From NCBI GenBank assembly GCA_950295325.1, contig OX485803.1, positions 44,531,554 to 44,595,553 on the forward strand: 64,000 bases of DNA. Direction: 5' to 3'. The number at the start of each line of letters is the position of its first letter. The first letter of the stretch is position 1. Positions 4,920 to 24,019 of the stretch are shown one piece after another. A program made the translations under genes and the position numbers. This DNA is from Polytrichum commune (Eukaryota > Streptophyta > Polytrichopsida > Polytrichales > Polytrichaceae). The notes under the pieces were generated by a model, which saw only the letters and a program-made list of their open reading frames with translations, was not told the DNA's origin and did no database searches.

Positions 4920-5217
4920 GGATAGTTTGTACTAAGAGTCGTACTAACGAAAGGATGAATATAGATGTACATAGTTGAAGCCGGGAGGGCCAACTAGGGT
5001 GGTCTAAGATCATGCTAAGTAGTGTTAATGTACGACGAAGAGGAAGAGAAAACTAATTGAGTCAAGAAGAATAGTGTGTCCTAAAAACCGTACTAGCGAA
5101 AGGGTGAATACAGAATGCACATAGTTGAAACCGGGAGGGCCAACTAGGGTGGTCTAAGATCATGCTAAGTAGTGTTAATGTACGACGAAGAGGAAGACAC
5201 TAGGGAGCGAAGTCGTT
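4920..5217 (+). repeat. Tandem duplication, 150 bp period, across the gag start
   Basis: CCGGGAGGGCCAACTAGGG occurs at 4981 and 5131. The following GTGGTCTAAGATCATGCTAA and GTGTTAATGTACGACGAAGA are identical in both copies. The duplication repeats the 5' end of gag, so only the second copy leads into a long reading frame. Confidence 0.8.
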
Positions 5218-6893
5218 CGCCACCATCTAGGAGAGAGGCCGAGGACGAACGTAAGCACATTAACCGTATGCAACATGGAGTAAACCCCAATAGCGAGGAA
5301 GGAAGAACCGAGAGGCAAAGAAGAAAGAGAGCGGAACGATACGAGAGACGGGCAAGACAAAGAGCCGAAGGTCTTGATGTATCTAGATCACCATCCCCAC
5401 CACTAACTAGCGACAACCTAGATCGACCATTACCCTACGAGTATGGAAGTAACGAGTTAAATAGAGAAGAACAAAACGAGCAAAGAGACACAGTCACTCC
5501 ATTAGGAACATTCGAAACATATACTAAAGAGGGGACACCTCGGAATATTAATTTCGATCAAGACACACAACAAAGCCTAGTAGAAGATGAAAATTTAACA
5601 ACAACTCAAAGTGAAGAAACAACATCAAGACAAGTCAATCGAACATTTGAAGAATTTTTACAACAAAGGGCTAGTGAACAAAGATTTGACTTTAGAGTAC
5701 CAATTATTAGTAGCACAACAAGATCCGGAACAACGTCATTAGGGCCGAATCTCGGAGGAAATTACTTTGGAAATTCCGGAGGAGGAGGAGGAAGTAGAAA
5801 TATAGCAATGTCGGGGGGAGCGCCACCCCCGCCTAGAAGAGGGAAGATACCTCTTCCTACATACAAAGGAAAAGAAGATCCGGACACTCACATACAAGAA
5901 TATGTCAATATATGTCATGCCAACCAAGAAGGGACCGATGCGGAGAAACTAAGATTGTTTCCGGTGACTCTTAAAAAGAAGGCACTAGAATGGTACACTC
6001 AATTTCCCGCGAATCACTTTGTGAATTGGTCCGATTTAAAGACGACTTTTATCCAACCATCAACAACTTGTCACATGTAAAGCAAAAGAAAGATGAATCG
6101 GTGGAAGAATTTTATGAACGAGTAATGATAGCGGCCGCAAAGATTCAACCCGCACCGGGAGAACAAATTAGAAAAACTTGGTTCATAAATGGACTAAGGA
6201 AAGAATACGAGAAATATGTAAACATTTTACCAAGTGATACCTTGGAGGAAGCACTAGCTTCGGCACGAAAGATTGAGATGAGCAAAACAAAAAAGGAAAG
6301 AATGAGAGAAGACGAATCAAGTGGAGATTCAAGTAGCGATTCCGACGGAGATGTACGGAGGAAGAAGAAAAAGGGAAAGGCTAAGAAAGCCGATATCACT
6401 AAAGATGATCTAAAAGCTCTTAAAGATAGAGGAACTAGCCATTGGTACTCGGAAGTTTAGGACGGGAGTCACTTGCCGAAGATGCCGCAACGAAGGCCAT
6501 TACTCAAATGAGTGCCAATTAAAGAGTTGCTCAAATTGCAATAACACTACCCACAATACAAATGAATGTGTTTATGATGGAAGAAGGCGAGAAAGGAGAT
6601 ATGGAGTGAATCAAGTACAACCACAATTGAACAACAACCGGAGAAGGGCGGAGGCCGTACCTCCGAGATTTAGAGATGAAGAGTAACCGCGGTTCGGGGA
6701 GAATCGGCGAGATATGAGATACCCCTATCAAGGGAGGGATAAGCAAAGGGATGAAGGATACCCCTATAACGGGCAGGAATACCGAAGAGGAAATCGGTAC
6801 CCGTACGACAATTACCGGAGGGAAGCAACATACCCCTACCGAAGCCAATACTACCCAAGGCAGGAATGCTACGATGTGAGCGGTGAGCGATGA
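5172..6893 (+). pseudogene. Ty3/Gypsy gag polyprotein, frameshifted
   Basis: Gag packages the retrotransposon RNA into virus-like particles. The N-terminal ~70 residues are rich in Arg and Ser, followed by an acidic, Gln/Thr-rich stretch. A retrotransposon gag domain starts near 5850 (PLPTYKGKEDPDTHIQEY, LEWYTQFP, NWSDLKTTF). Around 6040-6060 a one-base shift moves the coding frame to the one open to 6460 (SHVKQKKDESVEEFYERV, acidic/Lys-rich tail). A second shift near 6450 restores the first frame. Two CCHC zinc knuckles follow: CRRCRNEGHYSNEC at 6474-6515 and CSNCNNTTHNTNEC at 6528-6569. A TAA at 6684 interrupts a tail of RYPY-type repeats that then runs into the inverted repeat of the 15-kb transposon. 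No protease, reverse transcriptase, RNase H or integrase is present. The 15-kb element probably inserted at or near this point. Confidence 0.8.
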
Positions 6894-6950
6894 GCGGTGA
6901 GCGATGAGCGGTGAGCGATGAGTGGTGAGCAGATTTCGTGAGCAGAAAAT
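6876..6950 (+). repeat. Left terminal inverted repeat (minisatellite)
   Basis: Four near-identical units of GAGCGGTGAGCGAT are followed by GAGTGGTGAGCAGATTTC and GTGAGCAGAAAA. The array matches the reverse complement of 21936-21971 and forms the outer edge of the 15-kb transposon. Confidence 0.75.
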
Positions 6951-7286
6951 TATAATTTAAAAATCCATTTAACGAATGTTAGGCCCCTTATGACCGTGGA
7001 TTTTGCACATATTTCAAGTTTAATTTTGTAATTATAAGGCCTATATTTGTGGAGTGGCCAATTTCTAGAACCAAAAAGTTTCTTAAAATTACCAATGAGG
7101 CCCTATGACTGTGGGAAAATTCACTATGGTTGAGAAGATGGTGGACTAAATTCTCTTTGGAGTATGACGACCACCAAGTGTAATGTGATTTGAGAACAAC
7201 GAAAAGATGCATTCAATGAGATAATTGGAATATTGAAAACCACACCACACTTTATAAATCCAAATACCAATCAATCAAACCAAAAA

Positions 7287-7549
7287 TCAATCAAACATGA
7301 GGTTGTCACTACTAGATTCCCTATCTCCAAAGATACTCCCCTCATGGCCGCCCTCATTTGAAGTGGAATCTAAGCTATGGCACTCATTATCCACCTCTGC
7401 AAAAAGCTCGAATAAGTCTATGGCACGGGGGTCATAATGTGGAGACGGGGTACTAGCTTTGGTAGGAGAAGGTTGTGCCGCTAGCACCATCGCCATATCA
7501 TGGGCATAGATTGGCAAAGTGAATCCCATGGTGGGAGTACCAAACACAT
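7287..7549 (-). pseudogene. Last exon: acidic C-terminal tail
   Basis: It begins after GGAGCAG and encodes DVFGTPTMGF..., a Pro/Ser/Thr-rich stretch, and an Asp/Glu-rich tail ending at a TAA-type stop. There is no known domain. Assignment to the methyltransferase gene rests on strand, spacing and a plausible acceptor. The phase with the previous exon is off by one. Confidence 0.45.
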
Positions 7550-7663
7550 CTGCTCCAAGGCCAAGTCTGAAAAGAAGCATGAAAATTGTAAGAAAGAGGA
7601 TGGAAAGTGTAAAAGCTGAGTGGACAAGGAAAAGAAGCAAAGAAGGTCATCATACTCACTTAC

Positions 7664-7870
7664 TGCGAGGACTCTGGCCTCGATCGCTTCAAGGCCGGCG
7701 GCCTCTTCTGCGTGCCTTGTGAAGCCTACGTGGAAGCAACAACAATGGATGGAGCCTTCACCGGAGGCTTAACACTCTTAAGTGGCTTAAGGACACGGTT
7801 GAAGATGTCCTCGTCCTCCTCGAGAGCAATGATATGGCGCCCAAGCTGCCTGCATGCATGGACAGAAGTC
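7664..7870 (-). pseudogene. Methyltransferase motif following the SAM-binding loop
   Basis: ACRQLGRHIIALEED then IFNRVLKPL matches the segment after motif I in beta-class N4/N6 DNA methyltransferases (A..LGR..IG.E.D..), where the acidic residue contacts SAM ribose. The acceptor is AACAAG before GACTTC. A TAG lies in frame at 7726. The join to the preceding exon needs one extra base to keep this frame. Confidence 0.6.
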
Positions 7871-7960
7871 CTTGTTGCGAAGGAAAGGTTAACAAAGATA
7901 AATAAAAGCAAACGTAGAAAATGAAAACCAGGATATGATGGCAAGTGAAGTAGGACATAC

Positions 7961-9207
7961 CAACGCCTGCATTAACGTCAACCACGACGTGCCCAATGTC
8001 CGTAGTGCCCATGATCAATGAGGACATGAAAGAAATATCTTTCTCACGGGGACCACGCCAAGCTTTTGAGCCGTCCATGAGAGGAGTTGTGGTATAATTC
8101 ATAATGGCATCATCCATCTCGAGCTCAATGCCAAGAGCCTTGAGCTCATTGGCATCGCGAAGGCAAAATGACGAGTGTCGGGGCCGCTTATCAAGGTCGG
8201 ATCCGATTGTTTTCGTGGCACGAACAAGTAGTACAACTTGGAAGAGGTTGGTGGTCTTGTCCACATTCTTAGCTGAATGGAGGCGAAGACAGTTGACTCC
8301 CAGCCACTCCTTGAAGATGGTGAAGCCAAAAGCAGGGAAGTGGTCTTGAATGCTCTCCCTGAAGCCACCATTGTCAACTGGATGAAAGAGGAGGAGAGCT
8401 CCATCGTCATGGATGATCTCGTCCATGAAATCGAAGAGTTCACCAAGGAAATCAGGATCTAGTACATTCCAGGAAGGAACACTATCTGCCGGATCAGATA
8501 CATTGGGCACAGGCAGGTTCTCCGAGATGTCAGCAATGACAAGATCAGCCATGCCCACATCTAACCTCCTGACGCCTAGAGCTCTCCGCGTATGGGAGGG
8601 TGGAAGAGAAAGGATGAAGTCTGAAACCACCTGAAAATGACGACGCTGATGGAGAATGGAGGCATTCAAGATGCATTCTGAAACAACCGGAGGAGGCCTG
8701 GTAGATGAAAGAACGGGCTGTGGAGGCGGCCTCGACAGAGTAGGTACCTGACTAAGAGTTGCAGTGGATGCAACAACCGCTTCAGGTGAAGCAGGGGGGT
8801 CATCCTCCACAGTTTTGAGCTTCCTTGCGCGTTTCTTCAGTGATGACTCGTCTTGGGTTGCACGCTTCCTCCTCTTGGACTTCTGTGTGTTGGCCTCATC
8901 GAGAGTCGCAACAACCTCATCCGCCTCCGGAAGCTAACTGTCAAGGAAAACAACCTCATCGCTTTGAGTAGGAGGCAGTGGAGGCTCTCCACCGGAGAGT
9001 CGAATCTTCAACACCGCCTCCTCATCCGGTTGCCACGTCCTCTTACACTCCAAGTACCAGCAACACTCCCGGAGATGCGGGAGGGAGAAGTTGCGCTTTT
9101 GAGCCGGGGAAAATATGAAGGTGGGCGAAGAGGAATCTGACCATGCGTCAAGAAATGGAGGGAGCTTCTTGATAGCCTTCTTCTTGAAAAGCTCGTGCTT
9201 GATGTAC
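7961..9207 (-). pseudogene. Main methyltransferase exon
   Basis: The exon joins the previous one in frame (Trp codon split as TG|G). It encodes YIKHELFKKKAIKKLPPFLD, a basic linker (KRRKRA, KKRARK) and a Pro-rich stretch. Then comes a permuted methyltransferase fold: DLVIADISENLP at the place of catalytic motif IV, ALLLFHP, GFTIFKEW, and finally VVVDVNAGVG, a good SAM-binding motif I, at the 3' end. This order (IV before I) is typical of the beta class. The catalytic DPPY is replaced by DISE, so activity is doubtful. There is a TAG at 8934. Confidence 0.6.
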
Positions 9208-9289
9208 CTTCACAACCAAGGAGTGAGGCCAATCAGCAACTTAGAGAACAAATGGTTTGAAACAAATGAGGAGAACAAAAGAAGAAATT

Positions 9290-10770
9290 AAGCGCTTGAG
9301 ACTTCCTCACACCTCACTCAGACCTCGCTAACTAGGACCCCTAAATGATATGGCCAGAAATTTGAATACTTCAAACATCATTCAGACCACATTTCAGTCA
9401 ACCCCCCTAGTTGAGTTAGACACAACACAAACATTTCAGACCAAACTAAGACCAAATTTCAGTCAACCCCCTAGTTCAATTAGCCACAAATAAATACATT
9501 TCAGACCTCATTCAGACCACATTTTAGTCAAGTCCCTTACAGAGATAGCCACAAATAAAAACATTTCAGACCTCACACGTACCTCTCACAATCTTACCCC
9601 TAACATAGATAGCCAAAATTCTAAAATTTCAGAGGTTCTCGAGTTTGTTACAGATGCTCTGTCGGATCGGACAAGGGCCTTTAGGCCACACCTCAGACCT
9701 AGCAAACCAGGACCCCTAAATGAGTTAGCCACAAAATTTGATTCTTTCAGAACTCACTCATACCGCATTTCAGTCAACCCCCTAGTACAGTTAGCCAAAA
9801 TCCTAAAATTTCAGAGGTTATCAAGTTCAGTTAGCCACAAAACAAACATTTTAGACCTCATTCATACCACATTTCAGTGAAACCCCCCTAGTTGAGTTAG
9901 ACACAAAACAAACATTTCAGACCTAAGTAAGACCAAATGTCAGTCAACCCCCTAGTTCAGTTAGCCACAAATAAAAACATTTCAGACCTCATTCAGACCA
10001 CATTTTAGTCAAGTCCCTTAAAGAGATAGCCACAAATAAAAACATTTCAGACCTCACACGTACCTCTCACAGTCTTACCCCTAACATAGATAGCCAAAAT
10101 TCTAAAATTTCAGAGGTTCTAGAGTTCGTTACAGATGCTTTGTCGGATCCGACAAGGGCCTTTAGGCCACACCTGAAACCTAGCAAACCAGGACCCCTAA
10201 ATGAGTTAGCCACAAAATTTGATGCTTTCAGAACTCACTCATACCGCATTTCAGTCAACCCCCTAGTACAGTTAGCCAAAATCCTAAAATTTCAAAGGTT
10301 ATCAAGTTCAGTTAGCCACAAAACAAACAATTTAGACCTCATTCAGACCACATTTCAGTGAAATCCCCCTAGTTGAGTTAGACACAAAACAAACATTTCA
10401 GACCTAAGTAAGACCACATTTCAGTCAACCCCCTAGTTCAGTTAGCCACAAAGCAAATATTTCAGACCTCATTCAGACCACATTTTAGTCAACCCCCCTA
10501 GTTGAGTTAGACACAAATAAAAACATTTCAAACCTCAATCAGACCTCTCCCAATATTTTCCTTAAATGATTTAACCAAAAAGAAACATTTTAGAACTCAC
10601 TCAGACCTCGCTAACTAGGACCCCTAAATGATATGGCCAGAAATTTGAATATTTCAGACCTCACTCAGACCACATTTCAGTACAACCCCTAGTTTGATTA
10701 ACCAAAAAAAAACATGTGAGACCTCACGACGACCCCTTAAAGAGATAGCTTTAATGGTTTCAAATAAATG
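9290..10770. repeat. Satellite array 1 inside an intron
   Basis: Degenerate tandem units of about 65 bp recur throughout, built on CATTTCAGACCTCATTCAG, ACCACATTTCAGTCAACCCC, and CTAGTTCAGTTAGCCACAAA. A longer module with the palindrome TGTCGGATCCGACA (10141; variant at 9660) appears twice, about 480 bp apart. The array sits between the exon ending at 10802 and the exon beginning at 9207, so it fills the intron. Confidence 0.85.
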
Positions 10771-10801
10771 AGGAGAACAAAAGATGTCTCAACTAACGTA
10801 C

Positions 10802-11028
10802 CAAAAAATTAAGCGCTTGACAATGTTGTCGGCGCCTTTAACATCCTTCCACCACGTCCCCTTTCCGTAGATATCTGACCCTGAAAAGTGACCTATGAAC
10901 GCCTTATCCCAAAGGCAGATTCGCCACTTCTCCAAGTACTCCGGCAACGAATCAACTTCGACATCTCCGTCAAGCCCACCCAATGCATCAAGTATATCGG
11001 GTAACTCCTTGACCACAGCATCCTCTAG
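10802..11028 (-). pseudogene. Exon of the ParB-like/methyltransferase gene
   Basis: Bounded by an acceptor ATCCACAG and a donor GTACGT. It encodes DILDALGGLDGDVEV, WRICLWDKAF and GKGTWWKDVKGADNIV with no internal stop. Phase 0 at the start and phase 2 at the end both fit its neighbours. No known domain. Confidence 0.6.
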
Positions 11029-11112
11029 CTGTGGATAAATTCAAGGCCAACATAAGAGATGGCACAGAATGAAGAGTTGATAGGTAAGTAAGGATAAGGA
11101 GGATAGACGTAC

Positions 11113-11334
11113 CCCTGCCCAGAACGCTGCTTTATTGAGCCAAGGTTTCAAGTTGTCCTCTCTTGCAGGACTTTTGGGGAACCGGATAGCTTCACGATTG
11201 AAACTACCACTGTTCCATCACTTTAGCCAACGGACTTTATACTCTGGCTCCACAGCAGCTGTGGCAAAGAGTTGCAATTTCTCCAATGTCATCTCAATCT
11301 TCTTAGAATGATGGGCACTATAATGCCTAGTAAC
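11113..11334 (-). pseudogene. Exon of the ParB-like/methyltransferase gene with a TGA
   Basis: Bounded by TTTCAG and GTACGT, 222 bases, phase 0 on both sides. It encodes TRHYSAHHSKKIEMTLEKLQ, YKVRWLK, then TGA at 11218-11220, and PWLNKAAFWAG. The stop is one of at least four in this gene. Confidence 0.6.
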
Positions 11335-11456
11335 CTGAAACAAATGTCATCAAAATAGTAGGCGGAGTAAATTTGATCATGTATTCCGAGAAAGTGTTGC
11401 AATGAATGCGAGCAATACCGAAGGTATAATTCCGAAGGTGGTGACAAGAAAATTAC

Positions 11457-11645
11457 CTCCTCCAGGAACTGTTTTCCAAGGGCCGGGTTTGCGATTGATT
11501 GTTGCTTGTTAAACTTGTGCCCAAGTTCCTCAATCGTCTTCTTTACCACAGCGTCCAATATTTCACTCAACCCGTTCTATGACTGTTCCTCTGGAGGCAC
11601 TTCCTCCTTGTAAATCTGGGCTGCCTCATCTACCGCGTTGGCTAT
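11457..11645 (-). pseudogene. Exon of the ParB-like/methyltransferase gene with a TAG
   Basis: It encodes IANAVDEAAQIYKEEVPPEE, a TAG at 11577-11579, then SEILDAVVKKTIEELGHKF. Phase 0 at both borders. The helical, charged composition suggests a linker or DNA-binding helical region, but no family is recognised. Confidence 0.55.
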
Positions 11646-11734
11646 CTTTTACTGAACATATATTCCCAATTGTTAGATCATGACTAAAAGTAATGAATGC
11701 AAAGAAGATGGTTGGGGAATTTGGAGTGCCTTAC

Positions 11735-11917
11735 ATTGAAAATGAAGGACACCATAAGATCATAGGTCAGCGGGTACCAAGGGCTCTTGGGGCCTCTGCT
11801 CTTGCTCGCATGGTATTGCTCCTTGGTCAATAGCAGCTGGTAGTAGCTAAGATCATACAAACCGTATTTTTGAATGCAGTGTAGAGTGTCTACCAGGCTA
11901 GTTTTAACGTGGGCGGT
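11735..11917 (-). pseudogene. Exon of the ParB-like/methyltransferase gene
   Basis: It encodes TAHVKTSLVDTLHCIQKYGL, YYQLLLTKEQYHASK and YDLMVSFIFN, with acceptor CCAG and donor GTAAGG. It follows the ParB-like exon directly, but the join is one base out of phase. An ancestral AAG|GTAAGT donor that lost a G would explain it. Confidence 0.55.
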
Positions 11918-12007
11918 CTGGTTTGCCATATTGCAGTTGAGACAAATGTAATTAGGTGCAAATGAACAAATGAAGGAAAATATGATTTGAAAAAATATCA
12001 TACTTAC

Positions 12008-12744
12008 TTGTTGATGTCGTGCATTGCGTTAAGAACGTCCCCACGTCCACCCGTTGTGTCGAGGACGACACATTCTGGGCAACCATTCTTCTCGTACCAG
12101 AGTCTTTCGTCCTTGTGATCTGATTCAATACACTCTTTCCACGCAAACAAGCGGTGGTTCCCATCATACACGAATAACATACATCCACTGAGGCTCATCA
12201 AGTCCTTATCCGCGCGCAAAAGTGACTCAAACTTATCATTTTCTGCATTCCATAGCTCTCCCCATTCACGCCTGTCTTTCGCAAAAATGAATCGATTATC
12301 TCCAGACTCATTTGTAGTAGACACATACAAAGTGGCAGACCCAGCTCGGTATCCAAATTGAAATGCCGCCATGAGCTTTGTAACGTCGCTGCGGAGGGTT
12401 GGGCGAACCAATGGCATGTGAATCAACCTACAGAGGGGGATTCTCATAGAGGATTTTTCGACCGGTTGTATCCTCATACCCTCAACAATTGAGAAGCTAT
12501 CTTTCTTTAAATTGTGGCAAATCCGATACTCCATTGCACGAACACCCACATCCGACTCTTCAGGTGAGCCGCACAGTGTCATCCCAGGTGTCCGCGGCTC
12601 ACTACTACCTGGTGTAAGTCCAGTACGTTCAGCACATGACAACGGAGACCCTTGCTCCCTATGCTCCTCAACACTAAGGGATGATCCAACGCCAATACGA
12701 ACCCCAACATCCAGAGACTCTCCATCCGCATCCATCTCAACGAT
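12008..12744 (-). pseudogene. ParB/sulfiredoxin-like exon
   Basis: After an acidic, Gly/Ser-rich N-terminus, this open exon encodes PLCRLIHMPLVRPT, DVTKLMAAFQFGYRAG and FVYDGNHRLFAWKECI, then CPECVVLDTT and a C-terminal NAMHDIN. The spacing (helix, conserved turn with G.HR..A, then a hydrophobic strand) follows the ParB N-terminal/sulfiredoxin-like fold, where this motif binds nucleotide (CTP or ATP). No stop interrupts this exon. Motif-level recognition only. A profile search is needed to separate ParB, Srx and DUF262-like variants. Confidence 0.55.
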
Positions 12745-12789
12745 CTGATGAGAGGTAATTATTTGAAAAAATGAGAAGCATTCAAATGA

Positions 12790-15700
12790 AGAAAGCTAAC
12801 CAAAATCCTTCAGACCTAACTAAGACCACATTTCAATCAACCCCCTAGTTCAGTTAGCCGCAAATAAAAACATTTCAGACCTCATTCAGGCCACATTTCA
12901 GTCAGCCCCCTAGTTCAGATAGCCAAAATCCCAAAATTTCAGAGGCTCTCAAGTTCGTTTTTGATGCTATGTCGGATCCGACAAGGCCTTTTAGGCCTCA
13001 CCTCAGACCTCCCAAACCAGGACCCCGAAATGAGTTGGCCATAAACTTGAATACTTCAGACCTAACTAAGACCACATATCAGTCAACCCCCTTACAAAGT
13101 TAGCCACAAAATAAACATTTCAGTCCTCATTTAGACCTAACTAAGACCACATATCAGTCAACGCCCTTCCAGAGTTAGCCACAAAATAAACATTTCAGGC
13201 CACATTCATACCTAACTAAGACCACATATCAGTCAACCCCCTTACAGAGTTAGCCACAAACAAAAACATTTCAGACCTCATTCAGGCCACATTACAGTCA
13301 GCCCCCTAGTTCAGATAGCCAAAATTCCAAAATTACAGAGGCTCTCAAGTTCGTTTCTGATGCTATGTCGGATCCGACATACCTCTTTAGGGCTAATCTC
13401 AGACCTAGCAAACCAGTACCCCTAAATGATTTGGCCAGAAATTTGATTATTTCAGACCTAACTAAGGCCACATTTCAGTCGACCCCCTAGTTCACTTAGC
13501 CAAAATACTAAATTTTCAGAGGCTCTCAAGTTCGTTTCTGATGCTCTGTCGGATCCAACAAGGCCTTTTAGGCCTCACCTCAGACCTCGCAAACCAGTAC
13601 CCCTAAATGAGTTGGCCAGAAATTTGAATACTTCAGACCTAACTAAGACCACATATCAGTCAACCCCCTTACATAGTAGTTAGCCACAAAATAAACATTT
13701 CAGGCCACATTCATACCTAACTAAGACCACATATCAGTCAACCCCTTACAGAGTTAGCCACAAACTAAAACATTTCAGACCTCATTCAGGCCACATTACA
13801 GTCAACCCCCTAGTTGAGATAGCCAAAATCCTAAAATTTTAGAGGTTCTCAAGTTCGTTTCTGATGCTATGTCGGATCCGACATACCCCTTTAGGCCTAA
13901 CCTCAGACCTAGCAAACCAATACCCCTAAATGAGTTGGCCAGAAATTTGATTATTTCATACCTAACTAAGGCCACATTTCAGTCGACCCCCTAGTTCACT
14001 TAGCCACAAATAAATACATATCAGACCTCATTCAGGCCACATTACAGTCAGCCCCCTAGTTCACATAGCCAAAATCTTAAAATTACAGAGGCTCTCAAGT
14101 TCGTTTATGATGCTATGTCGGATCCGACATACCCCTTTAGGCCTAACCTCAAACATAGCAAACCAGTACCCCTAAATGAGTTGGCCAAAAATTTGATTAT
14201 TTCAGACCTAACTAAGGCCACATTTCAGTCGACCCCCTAGTTCACTTAGCCACAAATAAATACATATCAGACCTCATTCAGGCCACATTACAGTCAGCCC
14301 CCTAGTTCACATAGCCAAAATCTTAAAATTACAGAGGCTCTCAAGTTCGTTTCCGATGCTATGTCGGATCCGACAAGGCCTTTTAGGCCTCACCTCAGAC
14401 CTCCCAAACCAGGACCCCGAAATGAGTTGGCCATAAACTTGAATACTTCAGACCTAACTAAGACCACATTTCAGTCAACCCCCTAGTTCAGATAGCCAAA
14501 ATCCTAAAATTTTTGAGGTTCTCAAGTTCGTTTCTGATGTTATGTCGGATCCGACATACCCCTTTAGGCCTAACCTCAGACATAGCAAACCAGTACCCCT
14601 AAATGAGTTGGCCAGAAATTTGATTATTTCATACCTAACTAAGGCCACATTTCAGTCGACCCCTAGTTCACTTAGCCACAAATACTAAAATTTCAGAGGC
14701 TCTCAAGTTCGTTTCCGATGCTTTGTCGGATCCGACAAAGCCTTTTAGGCCTCACCTCAGACCTCGCAAACCAGTACCCCGAAATGAGTTGGCCACAAAA
14801 TTTGATTATTTCAGACCTAACTAAGACCACATTTCAGTCAACCCCCTTACAGAGTTAGCCACAAAATAAACATTTCAAACCTCATTCAGACCTAACTAAG
14901 ACCACATTTTAGTCAACCCCCTAGTTCAGCTAGCCACAAATAAATACATATCAGACCTCATTGAGGCCACATTTCAGTCAGCCCCCTAGTTCAGATAGCC
15001 AAAATCCCAAAATTTCAGACCTCATTCAGCCCACAGTTCAGTCAGCCCCCTAGTTCAGATAGCCAAAATACTAAAATTTCAGAGGCTCTCAAGTTCGTTT
15101 CTGATGCTCTGTCGGATCCAACAAGGCCTTTTAGGCCTCACCTCAGACCTCGCAAACCAATACCCTAAAATGAGTTGGCCACAAAATTTGATTATTTCAG
15201 ACCTAACTAAGACCACATTTCAGTCAACCCCCTAGTTCAGCTAGCCACAAATAAATACATATCAGACCTCATTCAGGCCACATTTCAGTCAGCCCCTTAG
15301 TTCAGATAGCCAAAATCCCAAAATTTCAGACCTCATTCAGCCCACAGTTCAGTCAGCCCCCTAGTTCAGATAGCCAAAATACTAAAATTTCAGAGGCTCT
15401 CAAGTTCGTTTCTGATGCTCTGTCGGATCCGACAAGGCCTTTTAGGCCTCACCTCAGACCTCGCAAACCAGTACCCCTAAATGAGTTGGCCAGAAATTTG
15501 AATCCTTCAGACCTAACTAAGACCACATTTCAGTCGACCCCCTTACAGAGTTAGCCACAAACAAAAACATTTCATACCTCATTCAGGCCACATTTCAGTC
15601 AACCCCCTAGTTTAGATAGCCACAACATAAACATTTCAGACCTCAACTGACCTCTCACAGTCTTGCCCCTTGCAGACATAGCCAAAATCCTAAAATGTCA

Positions 15701-16330
15701 GAGGTTCTCAAGTTGGACAAGCCCTTTAGGCCTCGGCTCGGACGTAGCAAATTAAGAACCCTAAATGAGTTAGCCACAAATTTGATCATTTCGGACCTCA
15801 CTAAGACCACATTTCAGTCAACCCCTTGATTGAGTTAGCCACAAAACAAACATTTCAGACCTCACATTCGACCTCTCACAGTCTTGCCCCTTACAGAGTT
15901 AGCCACAAATAAAAATATTTCCGAGGTTCTCAGTTTCGCTTCAAATCCTCTTTCGGATCCGACAGGCCCTTTCGCCCTCACCTCAGACCTAGCAAACTAG
16001 GACCCCTAAATGAGTTAGCCACAAAATTTAATTCTTTCAGACATCACTCAGACCACATTTCAGTACAACCCCGAAATGATTTAACCAAAAAAAAGCATTT
16101 CATACCTCACGCACACCACATTTCATTACAACTTATAGTTGAGTTAGCCACAAAATTAAACATTTCAGAACTCACTCTGACCTCTCACAATTGATTCCCT
16201 TAATGAGTTACCCACAAAATCAAACATTTTGTATCTCACTTCGGACCTCTCACGGTACAACCCCTAAATGAGCTAGCCATAAATCAAACCATTTGCGAGG
16301 TTCTTAATCTGGCTACCCAGGGTCTCTCAC
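12790..16330. repeat. Satellite array 2 inside the first intron
   Basis: About 3.5 kb of the same degenerate satellite as at 9290-10770. Units carry TTTCAGACCTAACTAAGACC and CATTTCAGTCAACCCC, with a spacer CTCTCAAGTTCGTTTCTGAT leading to TGTCGGATCCGACA and then AGGCCTTTTAGGCCTCA. A higher-order repeat of about 180-500 bp can be followed by the palindrome. The array occupies most of the intron between the exons ending at 16649 and beginning at 12744. Confidence 0.9.
12970..15964. repeat. Recurrent 14-bp palindrome TGTCGGATCCGACA
   Basis: Perfect copies begin at 12970, 13366, 13870, 14116, 14362, 14543, 14724 and 15421. One-base variants begin at 13547, 15110 and 15951. Outside this array, one perfect copy lies at 10141 and a variant at 9660. 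The core contains GGATCC and GATC. Most are followed within a few bases by a second palindrome, GGCCTTTTAGGCC or a variant. Function unknown. Confidence 0.85.
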
Positions 16331-16648
16331 CTTAGACCTCTCCACGGGGCGACCACTGCCCTTCCTTTGAGTCTCTCCCCCTCTCCAGATCGTGGCTGCA
16401 ACCCTGAGCGCTGAGTGAGATCCTCGTATGCGGAGGAAAATCCTATTTCATAGTTCCTTGTAATGAGGGGAACGATGGTAGGTTACTGCCGCGGCATTTT
16501 TGTTCCCTTCCACTTCCGACTGTCTCATTGTGACCACCCTTTGCATGGTGAGTGCTTCGTCGGGCCCACACTTGCTGCGTTCTCTAGCTCACGAAGACAA
16601 CCCCTAATTTCTAGTGCATATATGTTAACATCGACTTGAGGTTCATAC

Positions 16649-16954
16649 CTGGGTCTCGCAAATTCTTGATAGATCATGTGATATTTGGAACTCCACTTTT
16701 TTTATCGTACCCACTCCAGCTCCCTTGCTAGCAATATCTTCACCTCTGTAAGTTTGGCTTGTCTTAATACGAGACCTTGACCTTGTGCGGTCTGGGGTGC
16801 ATTCCAATGCCTTCACTGTGCTGTTTAAGCTATCATATCGTTGTTTCTCTTGTCTCATCCTAGATGCAACTATTTGCTTCCTGCTTGAGAAAACTGCCTT
16901 CCTCCTCCTCTTCGCCTTTGGTTTCACTAACTCTATCAGTGAAGACCCTGTCAT
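16649..16954 (-). pseudogene. First exon of the ParB-like/methyltransferase gene
   Basis: The ATG at 16954 starts MTGSSLIELVKPKAKRRRKA, a basic stretch likely to direct nuclear import, followed by further Lys/Arg-rich sequence. It ends ICETQ at a clear donor (CAG|GTATGA). Phase 0 matches the acceptor at 12744 across a 3.9-kb intron. An upstream stop in the same frame supports the start. Confidence 0.5.
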
Positions 16955-17725
16955 GTAACTGAACCGGCTTCGCAAATTCTACACCTCCCTCCTTTGTGAA
17001 CATCACTCTATCAATGTATGTGTTTCGTGTGGATTACATCCGCACTAATACTCCATCCCATAATCTCGTTATCATAATGTGGATATGTTTTGATTACAAT
17101 CAAGTTGCTATAAACATATAAAGAATCATAAAAAGAAACACTTATAGAATGAACAAGGATGATTAATAACATTTATCGAAATAATCCAAAAAATATATAA
17201 ACATGAAGAACATCATGTTTTCTAAAAATAAAAATAAAAGTACAAATGATAATACATAAGTCAAACTAAACTAATTGTAAAAAATAATGTATATAGCCAT
17301 AACTTTATGAGACTCTTCCAACTAAACCAACCTATTCTAGCTTCTCCTTAAACGTGTATGCTCTGCCCTTGCCCATTTCAATCCTCCACTAAAAAAGAAA
17401 CACTTTACTTTAGGGTGTCCCTTATATCCAGTAAATGGTTCACGTGGTCTCTGGTTTATTTATTAGAACGTCACTCGGCATCCAACCTCATGTTTGTTAT
17501 TAATATATCTAATTTGGATTGGCATATGATCATGACTAACTTAAGTAATTGCTCCAATGCATTTTCAATTTTAATTCAAATTGCTCCGCCGTCTTTCATA
17601 GATTCCATTTTGCCATGGCCTTCTAATCACAACACTATATACACCGCCCCACTTTCAACTCACTTTAAGTCCATTGCCCATTTGGCCACTATCTTCTGTG
17701 AACTCGCATTTACAATCCTTCTACA
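16955..17725. promoter_or_regulatory. Divergent intergenic region of the transposon
   Basis: This ~770-bp gap separates two head-to-head genes and must hold both promoters. The part 17110-17340 matches the inner end of the pogo-type element at 27930-28090 (AACACTTATAGAAT, GATTAATAACATTTAT, AAAGTACAAATGATA, CTTCCAACTAAAC), so the promoter region has absorbed a decayed pogo copy or shares ancestry with it. No TATA box is assigned. Confidence 0.5.
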
Positions 17726-20700
17726 ATGGCCACCATCCGAGCACTGCACCATTCCATCCCGCTTATGATCCCTCTAGGAGATGATGGTCTAGCCAAAGTC
17801 GCAGAGTCGTTCCTTAGTTTGAGGTTTAGATTCCACCCAGACTCAATTCATGTCGAGGAAGAAGTCTTTAATGCTAATGGTGACTTGAGTCACACTGTCC
17901 TTCAGATATCATTTCGCAATGACGATGGTAGAGTTTGGTTCTTGCTCCCTGGAACGTACAAGGCCATAGGCGTCACCGAGTCGGATATGGCCACCACAAC
18001 TGTGTTGCTAACACCAGGTGTGTCCCTTACGTCCACCACGCAGGTTCTTCTTCTCGCGACGGTCAAGAAGGAGCCCGGCATCGAAGAGGTTACCTTGCTC
18101 AGTGACTCTGATGATGATCTGCCACCTGCCTCTGACGTTGCCTCACTTACCCCACCTCCATCGCAAGATCAGCCCTTCATCAATTCTCTAAGGATTCCAC
18201 AGTCGCCTACTGTAAGTCAACCATCTACTTCCAGACCCCCAGTTCACCCAGGTGTTTCTAAAGATCGTCCGAGTGTTGTCCACCACTTGAAGTTGTTTGC
18301 AACCCGACCAGGGTCCAAGAACATACTCAAGAAGATTGATTATGAATATGTTAGGCATGAGAAGGTTGACTACCTCCCATCTGTTTTTGACGGCGACGTC
18401 ATCTTTGAATTCCCTCCTCTCGGAGCTGATGCTCCCCATTCCCATGCTAGACTCATGTTCGGAATGGACAAGCGTTTCGACGGTCATGCTTGGTGTAGGA
18501 CAAAGACGTCTAATATTACCAATGATCTCGGCTTGACCTTCCGGTCCTCATGTTGTGTTGGCCATCTCCGTTGTGATAACAAGGGATGTGATTATCTCAA
18601 CCGCCCCAATCGAGCCACTGACGTCAACGAGACCGAATGGGAAGGCTGTACCGCCTCACCCTACTCCGTAGGAGTTGATCCCCCATCTGGGTCATCTCTC
18701 GTTTGTAAGGTCTGTAAGACACCACCCTATTGTCTTGATACTTGCCAAGCTAAGATGTACTATGTTTTTGGCAAAGGTGACATGACCCGTGCATGCATCC
18801 ATATGGGTCATCACCATCACCCCGTTTCGCAAGGTGTATGTAGAGAGTCTAAGGTCGAAAATCATGATCTCATTGGTAGAGAGGTTGAGAGGACTCCCAC
18901 CGCCACCAACTCTGCGATTGCTTTGGCTGCAAGTAAAGAGTTCCTTGCCAAGTATCTTCTACGCACGGGTGATGATCCCAATAAAGTTATGGACCTTGAG
19001 TCCATGAAGTTTGTCATGGACAGGTACCAACACCTCAGCACCCCTAGTATTCGAAACACAGTCACTTCCTTCAAGCGCATTGGGCGAGGGGGGATCATTG
19101 ACAGCATCACCGGACTCAGAGGTCATAGCAGTTGGCCCTATGTGCAAGAAAACAAATTCCCAGGCCAAGGAAAACTGTTGGAAAAAGTCTATGTATTCAA
19201 GATGTCCGAGGTGGGCCCTGGGTCTGGAGTTGACCTTGTCAGGAGAATGCAACCACACGGTGATTTGCAGGATGCTTGGGTCATGTTTGACCATGTCAAA
19301 CGTGTCAAGGGGTGGACAACCATGGCTTGCCATGTCTATGACTCGGCCTACTGCCGGGTTATGACTATTGCAATATGTGATATGCAGTATGAGGATGTCA
19401 CAGCGCAGAGCCTTCTTTGACATGGGCTCAATGAAGTTATGCACAGACATGGCATTGCTAAAGTTAACTTCAAAGGGTTCATGGCGGACAGTGCACAAGC
19501 CAATTGGAATGCAGTTAGGATTATCTATGGCAATGGTGATCCCAAGGTTCCTATGGAGTCTTGCGAGAGGACATGTCTATTGCATTGGACAGTGTCTATG
19601 GAGCGCCACACCGCCACCCACATCAAGCCCGACCTCCAACAACAACACAAGTTGTTATGCAAGCAGTACAAGGATGCCAAGACTCCCGAGCAGTCTGAGT
19701 CCCGTTATCTTGCCATCCGGGCTTGGTGGCTTTCCTCTGGAGCTGCATCCGAGGAAGGAATCAAGGACCTTGATACATGGCTTGCATTTTGGCACTTTCG
19801 TTACCGTCAATGGGGTGGTTTCATGCAACTAGTGAGTGTACCATCCACTTTCTATTTCGCTTTTTGGTGTCAATTTGTTTTTTGCCTATTAAGCCTCTTT
19901 TGTCATATGTTGTACATCTCCATAATACCAATATCAGTTTAGGCTTTTAGCCAGATTTTGTGCAAAGCGTACTCACTACATTTTATTGATTTCTCTCATA
20001 ATTTCACAGATTCCGAGTTGGCGGAGATGCCATCTTGCAACCTCTCTGAGATGGTCCACAACAAATGGCTTCAGCAGTCTCGAAACCGTGGCTCTAATCT
20101 ATATGTTGCCACCGTGGATGATTTCGTGAGGGCGTTCATGCAATGTACTAACTACTACGCCTACTTGAAGGTGATCGCTCTGGTATTGGCCCAGGAAAAG
20201 AAGAACTCCGCCTTCGTGCTGCACAACGATCCGGTGACGCCAAGAGAATTGTTGCAGCCCTCGAGCACATGCCTAGAGCAGAGCATTGGTGCACCCGCAA
20301 ACCCCAACTCGAAGGAGAGGAGGTCTTTGGCACCACCTAGCGCAAACTTGATATGCCCTTTGGTTTTGATAAGGATTCACATAGACCTGACAAGGTCAGT
20401 TTCTCTCATTCATGAGTGAGCACTAGGTCAACCAAAGCCCGTACTAATTCCGCCACACCATCAACCCTGCCCCTAACACAATCACCCAAGAAAGCGATTC
20501 CACAATGGGTCACCCACGTCAATAACATTCAGGAGACCCACTGCGATATCTCCAAGTGGCACATTTCTAGACTGCCCAAGATTTCCGCCAAGGCCTGCTT
20601 CGCCATGCAAGCTCGCACAAAGACCATGTGCACCCAGAAGATCGTTCAGCATGGTAAAAGTACTCCAGCTCCTACGTACACTGGCTACATGCGCGACTAC

Positions 20701-21406
20701 AAGAAGAACAAGGAATTCTTGACACAGTTCTTCTTCTGCAACGACGACATTGAGAGATGTGTCAAAGGCACTAGGAGGAAGTGGGTGCAGCACCGTCCGG
20801 ATGTCCCGGATGTCTGGCTTGTCCTCACTGGGACAAACCTCACTCTCCAGGAGGTTTTGGCCCTTGAAGACGGGGGATTCCAACTCCAGCAGCGTCAAGA
20901 TGTGTCACCCAGAAGGCTCTTCAGCGACTCCTCCAATGTTGCCTCGTCCATGGCCGAACTCCCTACCCCGGCCCAAGCCGATCAATACCCTACGCTCAAG
21001 TTTGGAAAGAAGATTCGGCGCAGTAACAACGGACCATGCGTCCAACAACGCAACAAGTGGGAGTCCGCCCTCAACGTCGAAGGACAAATCACCTCCGTCA
21101 CAATGATACCTCACCCAGGGATCGGGTGCATCATTCTCTTCCAGTCCCGAAAGAAGGCTAAGGTTGAGGAGTACCGTATCACTATCAGCACCTTCCCGTC
21201 GTGCACATGCCCGGATTTCGTGGAGATGTCAGCAAGAGCACTTGGGAAGCGGCAGTTGGGTAAACTGCAAGCACTTGTACTTCATCTTCCGTGTGACCTG
21301 CAACTTGGATCAATACCAAGAAACTTTCATTCATGCTCCGAGCCTTAGTTTCAATGAAGTGAAGCACCTCCTCGAAAGTGGCATCATGAAGCATGTGGGA
21401 CCTTAG
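17726..21406 (+). pseudogene. MULE-type transposase with SWIM zinc finger, disabled
   Basis: It cuts and joins transposon ends. Order: acidic/Pro-rich N-terminus; Cys/His-rich region (CCVGHLRCDNKGC, CKVC, GHHHHP); DDE core; SWIM finger. Proposed catalytic residues: Asp at 19340 (VYDSAY), Asp at 19487 (FMADSAQANWNAV) and Glu at 20048 (NLSEMVHNKW). The MULE-typical C..H is at 19574-19585. An intron of about 175 bases ends at 20009; using the donor at 19836 keeps frame. A second short intron probably lies at about 20394-20430. SWIM: CTC at 21202-21210 and CKH at 21266-21274, separated by a one-base insertion near 21258. Disabling changes: TGA at 19418 (likely from TGG), frame change near 20170, TAG at 20338, and the SWIM frameshift. 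It faces away from the ParB-like/methyltransferase gene. MULE assignment rests on the motif pattern, not a search. Confidence 0.75.
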
Positions 21407-21935
21407 CGTGGATACCTATAGGAGCTAGGCTGCCCCCCCCCCCTTATTTATAAGTTCACGCTAAGTATTTCCTATTGCGTTGAGTATACCATAGTATGAG
21501 TTCGCTCCGAAAATATCGCTGATATATCAGACCTATCATTATCTACATGATTTGAATTGTATTCGTTTCTAAATATTTATGGGTCTCTTCTTCCAACGGT
21601 AGTTTTAGATGTTATTGAATGGTACGAGTTTTGCTACTTTGCTTGAATGCTTGAATTTTATGACTTAGAATTTTCTCTTACGTTGTGACCTTAGCCTATG
21701 ATTAAGCGGCTCTCACCATAATATGGACAGTCAAAAGTTCCCTGGTTTAATTAGATCATGTCAACTAGTCTCTCTGAAAGGTACCCTAAAACAAAGTCTC
21801 TGTCCTTAAAGCCCTCAAAATTTGCACGGTAATAGGTCCATCGTTTTTACTAAAAAAATAGGTCCCACAATTTTCTATTTATATTTTCTAAATTTAGAAA
21901 TTTTATTACTATAATTGGAAAGTGTTGACTTTTTT

Positions 21936-21971
21936 CTGCTCACCGCTCACCGCTCGCGTCCCACCGCTCAC
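21936..21971 (-). repeat. Right terminal inverted repeat
   Basis: CTGCTCACCGCTCACCGCTC followed by a slightly diverged CCACCGCTCAC is the inverse of the left terminus at 6876-6950. It marks the right edge of the 15-kb transposon. The left end carries more minisatellite units than the right. Confidence 0.75.
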
Positions 21972-22015
21972 ACGGTAGCGTCGTTGGGGCATCGACTCCA
22001 TTTGGTGGGGGTGAG

Positions 22016-22545
22016 TGTCGCGCACCTCTCCATGAGGAGTGCCCAAAACACCATGGGCACAAGGGGGACCCTAAAGTGACACATGGGACTTGTGGCGTTG
22101 TTGGTGAGAGGGCCCAAGTGATCCTAGTGTGGGTGAGGGCCCCGGGCATTGGGAACGCCTCCCACCCACAGAGAGTAGGAGGCACAAGGGTAAGGCCATT
22201 AGCTATGCGTAGCTTATGGCGTGTTGATTCTAGAATGCTCAAAAAAACCTCAATCGGAGGTGTGATCTAAGAGATATGGCAGTTTGACTAGGGCGCTCTC
22301 TCGGGACAGAGCCCTGGTACATCAATGGCCTGGGAGTGGCTCCCGAGACTGCCAAGGTTTGATCAGGCATAACTTCCTTGATATTTGCCCAAATGGGGCA
22401 AGTGAGTAGTCCATTGGCATCTACGTGAAACGTAAATAACGATAGAATGGTCTAATTTTAGCATCAAAGATCATATGAAGAAGTTATGGTATTCTGAAGA
22501 TGTTGGGGCTTCGAGCCCCAGCTGCTAAGGCCTTAAGAGGCCCCG
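22016..22545 (+). repeat. 5' part of an LTR, plus orientation
   Basis: About 525 bases match the first half of the LTR at 22876-23858 in inverse orientation. Shared text includes GAGTGCCCAAAACACCATGG, GAACGCCTCCCACCCAC and ATTAGCTATGCGTAGCT. It starts TGTCGCGCACC only 45 bases beyond the right TIR of the large transposon, and homology stops near 22545. Confidence 0.75.
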
Positions 22546-22587
22546 GGTGCCTCATTTGTACCAAGTTCATTCCGACATTATCACCTT

Positions 22588-22824
22588 TCAAGCTTTTAGG
22601 CGCATTCGATATTCTAACCCCTGAATATTTTTCGACATTTGTGGGAGCATTTTCAAAGGGTTTCCTCCATTTTCCTCACTGAATCCACCATCATCTCCAC
22701 CATTGTTATCATAATTAATGGTGTGGTCAAAATCCACTTGTACATGATCATTGTTCCAATTTGAGCGTCACAACCTTTCAGAAACTTCATGCTCACCATC
22801 ATCACCCGCACGTTTAATAGCCAT
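22588..22824 (-). pseudogene. Start of a retrotransposon gag frame
   Basis: The ATG at 22824 lies about 40 bases from the primer-binding site on the same strand. It encodes MAIKRAGDDGEHEVSERL, a TGA at 22768, then an Asn/Asp/Gly-rich stretch and MLPQMSKNIQGLEYRMRL. The position fits a gag N-terminus. It is cut off by the inverted LTR fragment. Confidence 0.5.
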
Positions 22825-22861
22825 CTCTTCCTCCAAGTTTTAGCTCAAAGATTGGACCCAT

Positions 22862-22873
22862 GCTTTGATACCA
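22862..22873 (-). promoter_or_regulatory. Primer-binding site (initiator tRNA-Met type)
   Basis: On the minus strand this reads TGGTATCAAAGC, one mismatch from the standard plant PBS TGGTATCAGAGC that pairs with the 3' end of initiator tRNA-Met. It sits two bases beyond the LTR end, which fixes the LTR boundary and orientation. Confidence 0.75.
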
Positions 22874-22875
22874 CA

Positions 22876-23858
22876 TGTCGCAACCCTCACTAGCTCCCCT
22901 TAACTAGCTTGGTCATCTTTTTTTCAATTTTAACAAGGATCATAAGTGCTAACCCTTCGCATCCCGCCATGCTAATCATTAGCTCCCCATACCGCAGACC
23001 TTATAGTTCATAGGAGGGGAACCAAACCCTCCTACTTTGATTTCAGGATTCACCCCTTAATCGATAACCAATTCATAGATGTGGACTTCCATGGATGGAA
23101 GTCCAATCTTATATTGACCATCGCGTTGCCGGAGCAACACTACAACAACCCGAACCATACTAGGCAATTATGCCCTCACATTGGGCCAATGCCCATGAAG
23201 GCCGTGCCGTTCGGCCTCAAGTGGGTTCGGCTATACCACCTCACCCATATAAATCTCTAGGACTTTTGGCAAGGCCCCTACTCCACCATCAAGAAACCTT
23301 TTGTCTCTCTCCCAAGAGTTGGGACCAAGTATACATTTTCCCTTAGCAGTTGGAGCTGGAAGCCCCCAGCAGCTTCAGGCCACCATAACTTCCTTGTATG
23401 CTATCTAATGCTTAGAAACAACCACTCCACTATCATCTACGCTTCATGTAGATACCGATGAACTCCTCATTTGTTCCATTCGGGCAAATAGTGAAGAAGT
23501 TATGCATGTTAAAACCTTGGCAGTCTTGGGAGTCACTCCCAGGCCACTTCTATACCAGGACGTTGTCACAGGACAGCGCCCCACTCAAATTGCCATATCT
23601 CCTAGCTCACACTCCGATTGAGGTGTTCTTGAGCATTCTAGAATCAACACGACATGAGCTACGCATAGCTAATGGCCTTGCCCTCGTGACTCCTAATCTC
23701 CGTGGGTGGGAGGCGTTCCTAACGCCCAGGGCCCTCACCCACACTAGAATCACTTGGGCCCTCTCACCAATGGCACCACAAGTCTCAAGTGTCACTCCAG
23801 GGTCCCCCTTGTGCCCATGGTGTTTTGGGCACTCTTCATGAAGAGGTGCGCAATAACA
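22876..23858 (-). repeat. 5' LTR of a retrotransposon, minus orientation (983 bp)
   Basis: Read on the minus strand it begins TGTTATTGCGCACC and ends GGTTGCGACA (TGT...ACA), followed by the primer-binding site and a gag start. It is the complete reference copy for the fragment at 22016-22545. No polymerase domain follows, because the internal region is truncated. Confidence 0.7.
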
Positions 23859-24019
23859 ATGTTGTCACTAATTTCTAATATATGTTGGATTCATGAAAGA
23901 AGGAGTCCATTTGAGGAGGACCAAGATCTAAACCTTGATATAGAGATCATTTGCATCATTTAATGACTTCACATGGGAAAGTATCAAGGATGCATAGAAT
24001 GAATGGAAAGGCCTATACA

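Follow-up and report, generated by a model that had tools for sequence, protein, structure and literature searches.

We report that a 64,000-nucleotide stretch of the genome of the moss Polytrichum commune (the window, G000:C1:44531554-44595553 of a 407.8-Mb assembly) contains a 15,126-bp transposable element in which a transposase gene is accompanied by a divergent gene with ParB-like and DNA methylase-type domains. The two genes recur together in other copies of the element, and every ParB-bearing copy that we read holds the inverted repeat TCGG-NN-CCGA, mostly in non-coding arrays that are otherwise unrelated. We give slightly better than even credence to a reading in which the window carries a decayed copy of a large two-gene family resembling Mutator-like elements (MULEs), whose ParB-methylase protein binds, and perhaps methylates, its own arrays and so shields the element from silencing. 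The arrays would provide a concrete basis for the idea, raised in an earlier note on this DNA, that the element marks itself or escapes silencing.

A two-gene element and its copies

A search with the transposase exon returned 758 candidate copies in the assembly, and 40 of these, the window's own included, were scored (93-100% identity). We read 20 of the 39 other scored copies, chosen by their place in the list and their identity: 19.2 kb for each of c1-c10, and the 7 kb upstream of the transposase for each of L031-L040. The ParB exon lies upstream of the transposase and divergent from it in 16 of the 20 (c1, c2, c3, c5, c6, c7, c9, c10, L031, L032, L033, L034, L036, L037, L038 and L039); in c10 it is in pieces, and in L037 it stands 8.2 kb upstream, as placed by a separate search with a ParB exon query of the lineage termed A below, in which the best 150 of 1115 candidates were scored and the surroundings of a minority were read. 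The exon was not found in c8 (12.5 kb), L035 and L040 (7 kb each) or c4, where an inverted methylase of lineage B adjoins without it. Judged by coordinates, a listed ParB exon lies upstream, within 15 kb and in divergent orientation, for at least 20 of the 40 transposases scored; the figure is a lower bound because the ParB list stops at the best 150 of 1115 candidates found with the lineage A query.

The ParB-methylase gene is therefore a stable partner of the transposase, as the earlier note had proposed in preference to random capture. Further copies with the same two-gene order exist, and the pattern that would have spoken against the pairing, transposase copies never accompanied by the methyltransferase gene, did not occur. 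As for the note's other counter-case, some of the 1115 ParB candidates, of which the best 150 were scored and a minority seen in their surroundings, may still be ordinary host genes. The same-order copies, the database homologues of three exons (among the matches listed, 53 for the ParB exon, 37 for the methylase-side exon and 100 for the transposase exon) and the ratio of non-synonymous to synonymous substitution rates (dN/dS) of the ParB exon, 0.18-0.60 in the 11 pairs, out of 28, that gave a ratio, establish the element as real and beyond chance. MULEs are known to capture genes, but random capture in the manner of a Pack-MULE, with the gene no partner at all, appears extremely improbable, and we disfavoured it given the conserved placement, the divergent lineages found at the same place and orientation, and the dN/dS values. 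Similar genes in other algal transposons, described in the available passages of PMC12477816, also argue against it.

The element and its genes have the following parts in the window.

6861..21986, whole element, 15,126 bp, termini defined from other copies
6861..6881, plus strand, left terminal inverted repeat CAGGAATGCTACGATGTGAGC, identical at the left end of c1, c3, c5 and c6, two changes in c2
6876..6930, GTGAGCG minisatellite just inward of the left end, seen in the window
7729..7873, minus strand, exon after methylase motif I, HACRQLGRHIIALEEDEDIF, with PF01555 domain matches when exons are joined
7961..9209, minus strand, exon that contains a linker and the region of methylase motif IV (LVIADISENLP in the window) and runs up to motif I DVNAGVG, with a stop in frame near 8934
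10792..11040, minus strand, exon, limits approximate, from the window frame and tblastn in copies
11044..11346, minus strand, exon, limits approximate, from the window frame and c5
11460..11650, minus strand, exon, limits approximate; in-frame stop near 11578, open in c5
11744..11937, minus strand, exon next to the ParB exon in the same gene, limits approximate, open frame with tblastn matches in copies
12007..12735, minus strand, ParB/sulfiredoxin-like exon with DGNHR motif, open frame (open over 12007-12795) with homologues listed
17726..19832, plus strand, transposase exon 1, 3' limit approximate; in-frame stop at 19418, open in database relatives
20010..21406, plus strand, transposase exon 2 with SWIM motif CTCPDF...CKHLYF, limits by eye; frame broken in the window copy
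21966..21986, minus strand, right terminal inverted repeat CAACGACGCTACCGTGTGAGC, identical in c3, c4, c5, c6 and c8, one change each in c2 and c9

The terminal inverted repeats are 21 bp long, imperfect and present at both ends, as in MULEs; the two inverted sequences lie 15 kb apart in the window, and the right terminus reads ...ACGGTAGCGTCGTTG at 21986, an imperfect inverse of CAGGAATGCTACGATGTGAGC. The inverted termini that the earlier note placed at 6876..21971 exist, but comparison with other copies puts the true ends further out, at 6861 and 21986; its roughly 15-kb two-gene transposon was otherwise borne out, both genes and inverted termini included. MULE target-site duplications measure about 8-11 bp, and perfect duplications of 10 bp, a size within that range, flank c3, c5 and c6, which are three of the five copies with both ends read, the window counted. 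The duplication that the note wanted defined from other copies is thus 10 bp. No duplication was seen at c2 or the window copy, both read at both ends, and the window copy may for this reason be a rearranged insertion. It is also decayed, with reading frames broken in several exons; the three in-frame stops, two in the ParB-methylase gene and one in the transposase, fall at positions that are open in c5 or in database relatives.

We call the transposase MULE-like on four grounds taken together: a SWIM motif, target duplications of 10 bp, inverted ends and, in the relative L001, a weak PF00872 match (E 0.038, below cut-off). Its similarity to Mutator is weak. SWIM fingers are common, though not universal, among Mutator-like transposons. 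The finger CxC...CxH was seen by eye in L001, a 4.1-kb contig in which both transposase exons are open through the motif CSCPGF...CKHVYY at the end, and in the window, where the frame breaks towards the motif. Pfam gave no SWIM match in L001 and no transposase match in the window exons. The plus-strand SWIM transposase that the note had described is supported in this MULE-like sense. L001 was the single transposase relative among prokaryote genome contigs, in a transposase-only search; it sits in a cyanobacterial bin and is probably a contaminant of that genome. Viral contigs held no relatives of the ParB exon or the transposase, and the best match of a phage tblastn search was not under E 2.

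Domains of the ParB-methylase gene

The divergent, multi-exon minus-strand gene described in the earlier note is present and appears to join a ParB/sulfiredoxin-fold domain to an N6/N4-type DNA methylase domain, presumably in a single transcript, so that both domains are encoded by one gene opposite the transposase within one element. The structural model of the ParB exon matches ParB and sulfiredoxin (Srx) folds, which is the fold of the ParB/sulfiredoxin superfamily; the best ParB-type Pfam match was only CB_ParB_C, at E 0.12 in 2 of 29 members. For the methylase, single exons gave no Pfam match above cut-off (PF01555 at E 0.16 in 1 of 23 members) and matched DNA methyltransferases in PHROGs (best E 8.4e-4). 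After the exons were joined, PF01555 scored 27.4 and 31.9 bits against a curated cut-off of 26.7, with a third domain below it at 22.4. Profile searches of solved structures with the ParB or methylase alignment gave no relevant match, and an AlphaFold model of the methylase was set aside (mean predicted local distance difference test score, pLDDT, 36).

The catalytic motif of N6/N4 methylases is [DNS]PP[YFW]. Motif IV reads D[IL]PE[NG] in most lineage A members and in the lineage B and C copies read, and the catalytic form was not found in these sequences, which is why we file the domain as methylase-type. The DNA methyltransferase of the earlier note thus stands as an N6/N4-type domain above the PF01555 cut-off, with a DIPE-like motif IV and not DPPY.

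Three ParB lineages

The ParB exons fall into three lineages, A, B and C, with identities of 81-96%, 97-100% and 88-95% within each; between lineages, A shares 35-45% with B or C, and B shares 77-82% with C. Further ParB-like exons at 63%, 51-56% and 39-45% identity are listed among the best 150 of 1115 candidates, many of them open, and form a larger superfamily.

An inverted repeat shared by unrelated arrays

Tandem arrays of unrelated units have in common the inverted repeat TCGG-NN-CCGA (core TCGGNNCCGA, 4-nt arms, spacer 2), which takes the forms TCGGATCCGA in lineage A, TCGGGGCCGA in B and TCGGTCCCGA in C. In the window the word occurs at the following places.

12972..16294, tandem-repeat arrays between the divergent genes; TCGGATCCGA at 12972, 13368, 13872, 14118, 14364, 14545, 14726, 15423 and 15953
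9370..10545, tandem-repeat array in an intron, missing from the same intron in c1, c2, c3, c5 and c6; one TCGGATCCGA at 10143
8197..8206, TCGGATCCGA within the methylase-side exon, by sequence match

Across copies the arrays lie between genes and in introns, in c5 and c6 also near the left end, and the unit length varies from copy to copy: 64-481 bp (window), 171 bp (c1), 128 and 139 bp (c5), about 234 bp (c7), and 85 bp and larger (c9). This placement bears on a distinctly unlikely alternative, in which the ParB domain nicks or clamps DNA during transposition or for copy control or target immunity, methylation tells own from foreign or old from new DNA, and silencing is uninvolved. The bacterial ParB-methylase fusion Bce_0392 is reported to nick DNA (available passages of PMC5512222), but in the copies read the moss sites are mostly intergenic or intronic, and just two copies, c5 and c6, have them close to an end, in their left array.

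Among ParB-bearing copies the word counts are 11 in the window, 5 in c1, 2 in c2, 3 in c3, 11 in c5, 14 in c6, 23 in c7, 16 in c9 and 3 in c10, and 5, 11, 15, 5, 9, 13, 15 and 13 in L031, L032, L033, L034, L036, L037, L038 and L039. Copies without a ParB exon have 11 (c4), 0 (c8), 0 (L035) and 1 (L040). The core word was absent from 71.2 kb of flanks of the window and four copies, and from the transposase side of 11 copies; in the copies read it is restricted to the half of the element with the ParB-methylase gene. When all 256 four-base arms were ranked at spacer 2, TCGG came first or second in 17 of the 17 ParB-bearing loci ranked (with ties in c3 and c10; c4 left out), and 49th in c8, 23rd in L035 and third, with 26 ties, in L040.

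The 186 word sites fall into eight context clusters, and the spacer follows the lineage: AT at 70 of 71 sites in A, GG at 39 of 43 in B and TC at 38 of 44 in C. L037, assigned to lineage A through the ParB candidate list and kept outside this tally, has 5 AT and 8 GT words side by side, perhaps a word in transition, and c9, of lineage C, keeps one GG-spacer word. The outer arms differ as well: CTG...CAG in most of A, an imperfect GGTGTG...GACACC in B and GGGT...ACCC in C, with a 26-bp palindrome as the outer form in the left-end array of c5 and c6. These observations make it very unlikely that the arrays are neutral minisatellites in which the word spread by tandem duplication and shared descent. 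Such an origin would fit the variation of arrays between copies, the non-independence of counts within an array and the equal frequency of some other inverted words, but it sits poorly with one core in several unrelated context clusters with different outer arms, and with the ranking of TCGG.

Genome-wide, the lineage A form TGTCGGATCCGACA has 658 sites against 0 for its reversed control, the B form TGTCGGGGCCGAGACA 83 against 0, and the C form GGTTCGGTCCCGAACC 130 against 1. A listed ParB exon is found no more than 10 kb away from 45 of the 50 A sites that were listed. For B the distance taken was 12 kb: 46 of its 83 sites have such an exon in that range, and the number rises to 64 when listed transposases are counted as well.

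Exchange of cassettes

Transposase exons of 11 copies are 92.6-99.0% identical. In the transposase tree, a group with 100% support unites c5 and c6, which carry cassette A, with c7 (cassette B), c9 (cassette C), c10 and c8, where no cassette was found; the window, c1, c2 and c3, likewise with cassette A, fall outside it. The stretch in which c5 resembles c7 and c9 starts some 325 bp ahead of the transposase exon. For the B element at c4, the match of its left end to the window's extends no further than about 120-160 bp; the sequence read from c7 and c9 stops short of their left ends. Divergent ParB lineages beside transposases 93-99% identical indicate that cassettes have been swapped between elements, and the tree, together with the limits of similarity in c5 and c4, suggests that ends and transposase are common property and the inside is exchanged. 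Exchange also appears to have occurred inside a cassette, since c7 (L023) and c9 (L027) are 96% identical in their methylase ends and 83% in their ParB parts.

The same data bear on the possibility, which we consider unlikely, that the transposase or a host factor uses the inverted repeats as promoter or subterminal sites, in which case the ParB-methylase would be a passenger serving a separate function. Many arrays do lie within the shared divergent promoter region; against this, the transposase side of 11 copies has no words, c8 (12.4 kb upstream) and L035 (7 kb) have a transposase without ParB and no word, and the spacer varies with the cassette despite the near-identity of the transposases.

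A putative self-recognition system

We consider the word a putative binding site of the ParB-methylase protein because its core is kept while array units and outer arms change, because the transposase-only copies c8 and L035 lack it, because the spacer tracks the cassette and not the transposase, and because c7 and c9 differ in ParB part and main spacer while sharing their methylase end. The last comparison points to the ParB half as the predicted reader. In the mechanism we propose, a dimer of the ParB-containing protein would read TCGG-NN-CCGA, and the bound protein would modify array DNA, by N6-methyladenine (6mA) or N4-methylcytosine (4mC), or merely occupy the array, so that the shared promoter region could be kept open against host silencing. 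Array growth and lineage-specific words would confine the benefit to elements of the same kind, in the manner of VANC and VANDAL elements.

Several points weigh against this interpretation. Another spacer-2 arm is commoner than TCGG in 8 of 17 loci (c5, c9, c10, L031, L032, L036, L038 and L039), and over spacers 0-6 TCGG at spacer 2 ranks 1 to 10; both results weaken the case, in lineage C most of all. The eleven words of c4 stand beside an inverted B methylase and no ParB exon, L040 has its one word with no ParB in 7 kb, and 19 of the 83 B sites have neither a listed ParB exon nor a listed transposase nearby, both lists being limited (that of ParB to the best 150 of 1115 candidates). The agreement of spacer and lineage can be shared descent, since both are features of one linked piece of DNA; the comparison covers three lineages only, and the word was first seen in lineage A and then sought in B and C. 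For the ParB exon model, Foldseek gave no match reaching E 0.001, and no Pfam ParB profile reached cut-off in 29 members, for which 6 families are listed. Since its motif IV is not DPPY, the methylase may lack activity.

With less assurance, and rating it a little below an even chance, we extend the binding and shielding reading to a swappable address system of ParB-parS type, in which the ParB-methylase would read lineage-specific arrays and write or guard a base mark that keeps the element active, the VANC strategy having evolved independently from bacterial-type parts. If true, sequence-specific anti-silencing of transposons would have arisen a second time, independently and out of bacterial-type components, and the system could introduce 6mA or 4mC into a complex eukaryote. 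Because each lineage has a predicted DNA address, self-recognition and marking become testable as binding, specificity and base modification of the own element.

Relation to known systems

ParB-parS partition, which in ParABS systems also involves a ParA ATPase partner, combines the ParB fold with clustered palindromic sites in cis, and the moss element likewise has the latter two. The closest transposon counterpart is Sola1-1_Ec32 of Ectocarpus, a large DNA transposon with a gene for a ParB-like domain and an N4/N6 DNA methyltransferase opposite its transposase; green and red algal transposons are cited too, and the authors suggest that such proteins may bind and modify their own element (available passages of PMC12477816). 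It differs in belonging to the Sola1 superfamily, whereas the moss element is MULE-like with a SWIM motif and 10-bp duplications, and those passages describe neither cognate motif arrays nor cassette swapping. A transposon with its own ParB-methyltransferase, which the earlier note considered notable, is in kind no novelty, such genes being already published for algae in the same source.

VANC binds its own motif and causes loss of DNA methylation in VANDAL21 and VANDAL6 (Hosaka 2017, PMC5735166, available passages). The transposon has its own regulator, as predicted for the moss element; in both, tandem repeats in introns and in intergenic or terminal DNA carry a short motif, and motif and protein change in step. 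Unlike here, the VANC motifs are not inverted repeats, and those passages mention no ParB or methylase domain for VANC. Bacterial and phage fusions of the Bce_0392 type join the same two folds (available passages of PMC5512222), but the moss gene is split by introns, lies in a eukaryotic-type transposon and has a DIPE motif IV. No motif arrays were found for a transposon ParB-methyltransferase in the literature searched, whose scope did not extend to most subscription papers or the green and red algal works cited by PMC12477816; relative to it, what is new is that the carrier is MULE-like, that three lineages have been exchanged and that inverted-repeat arrays match them.

Neighbouring sequences

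An Rfam scan of the window gave nothing at gathering scores. Abutting the left end of the element, 5169-6840 is presumably a Ty3-like gag remnant, with no continuation noticed in the right flank. Directly adjoining the right end is a separate inverted-repeat element (22004-23860, arms about 490 bp), parts of which recur in the c1, c2, c5, c6, c9 and c10 stretches at 81-89% identity. Further away, 49242-51986 contains exons that we take to resemble a plant organic-cation transporter.

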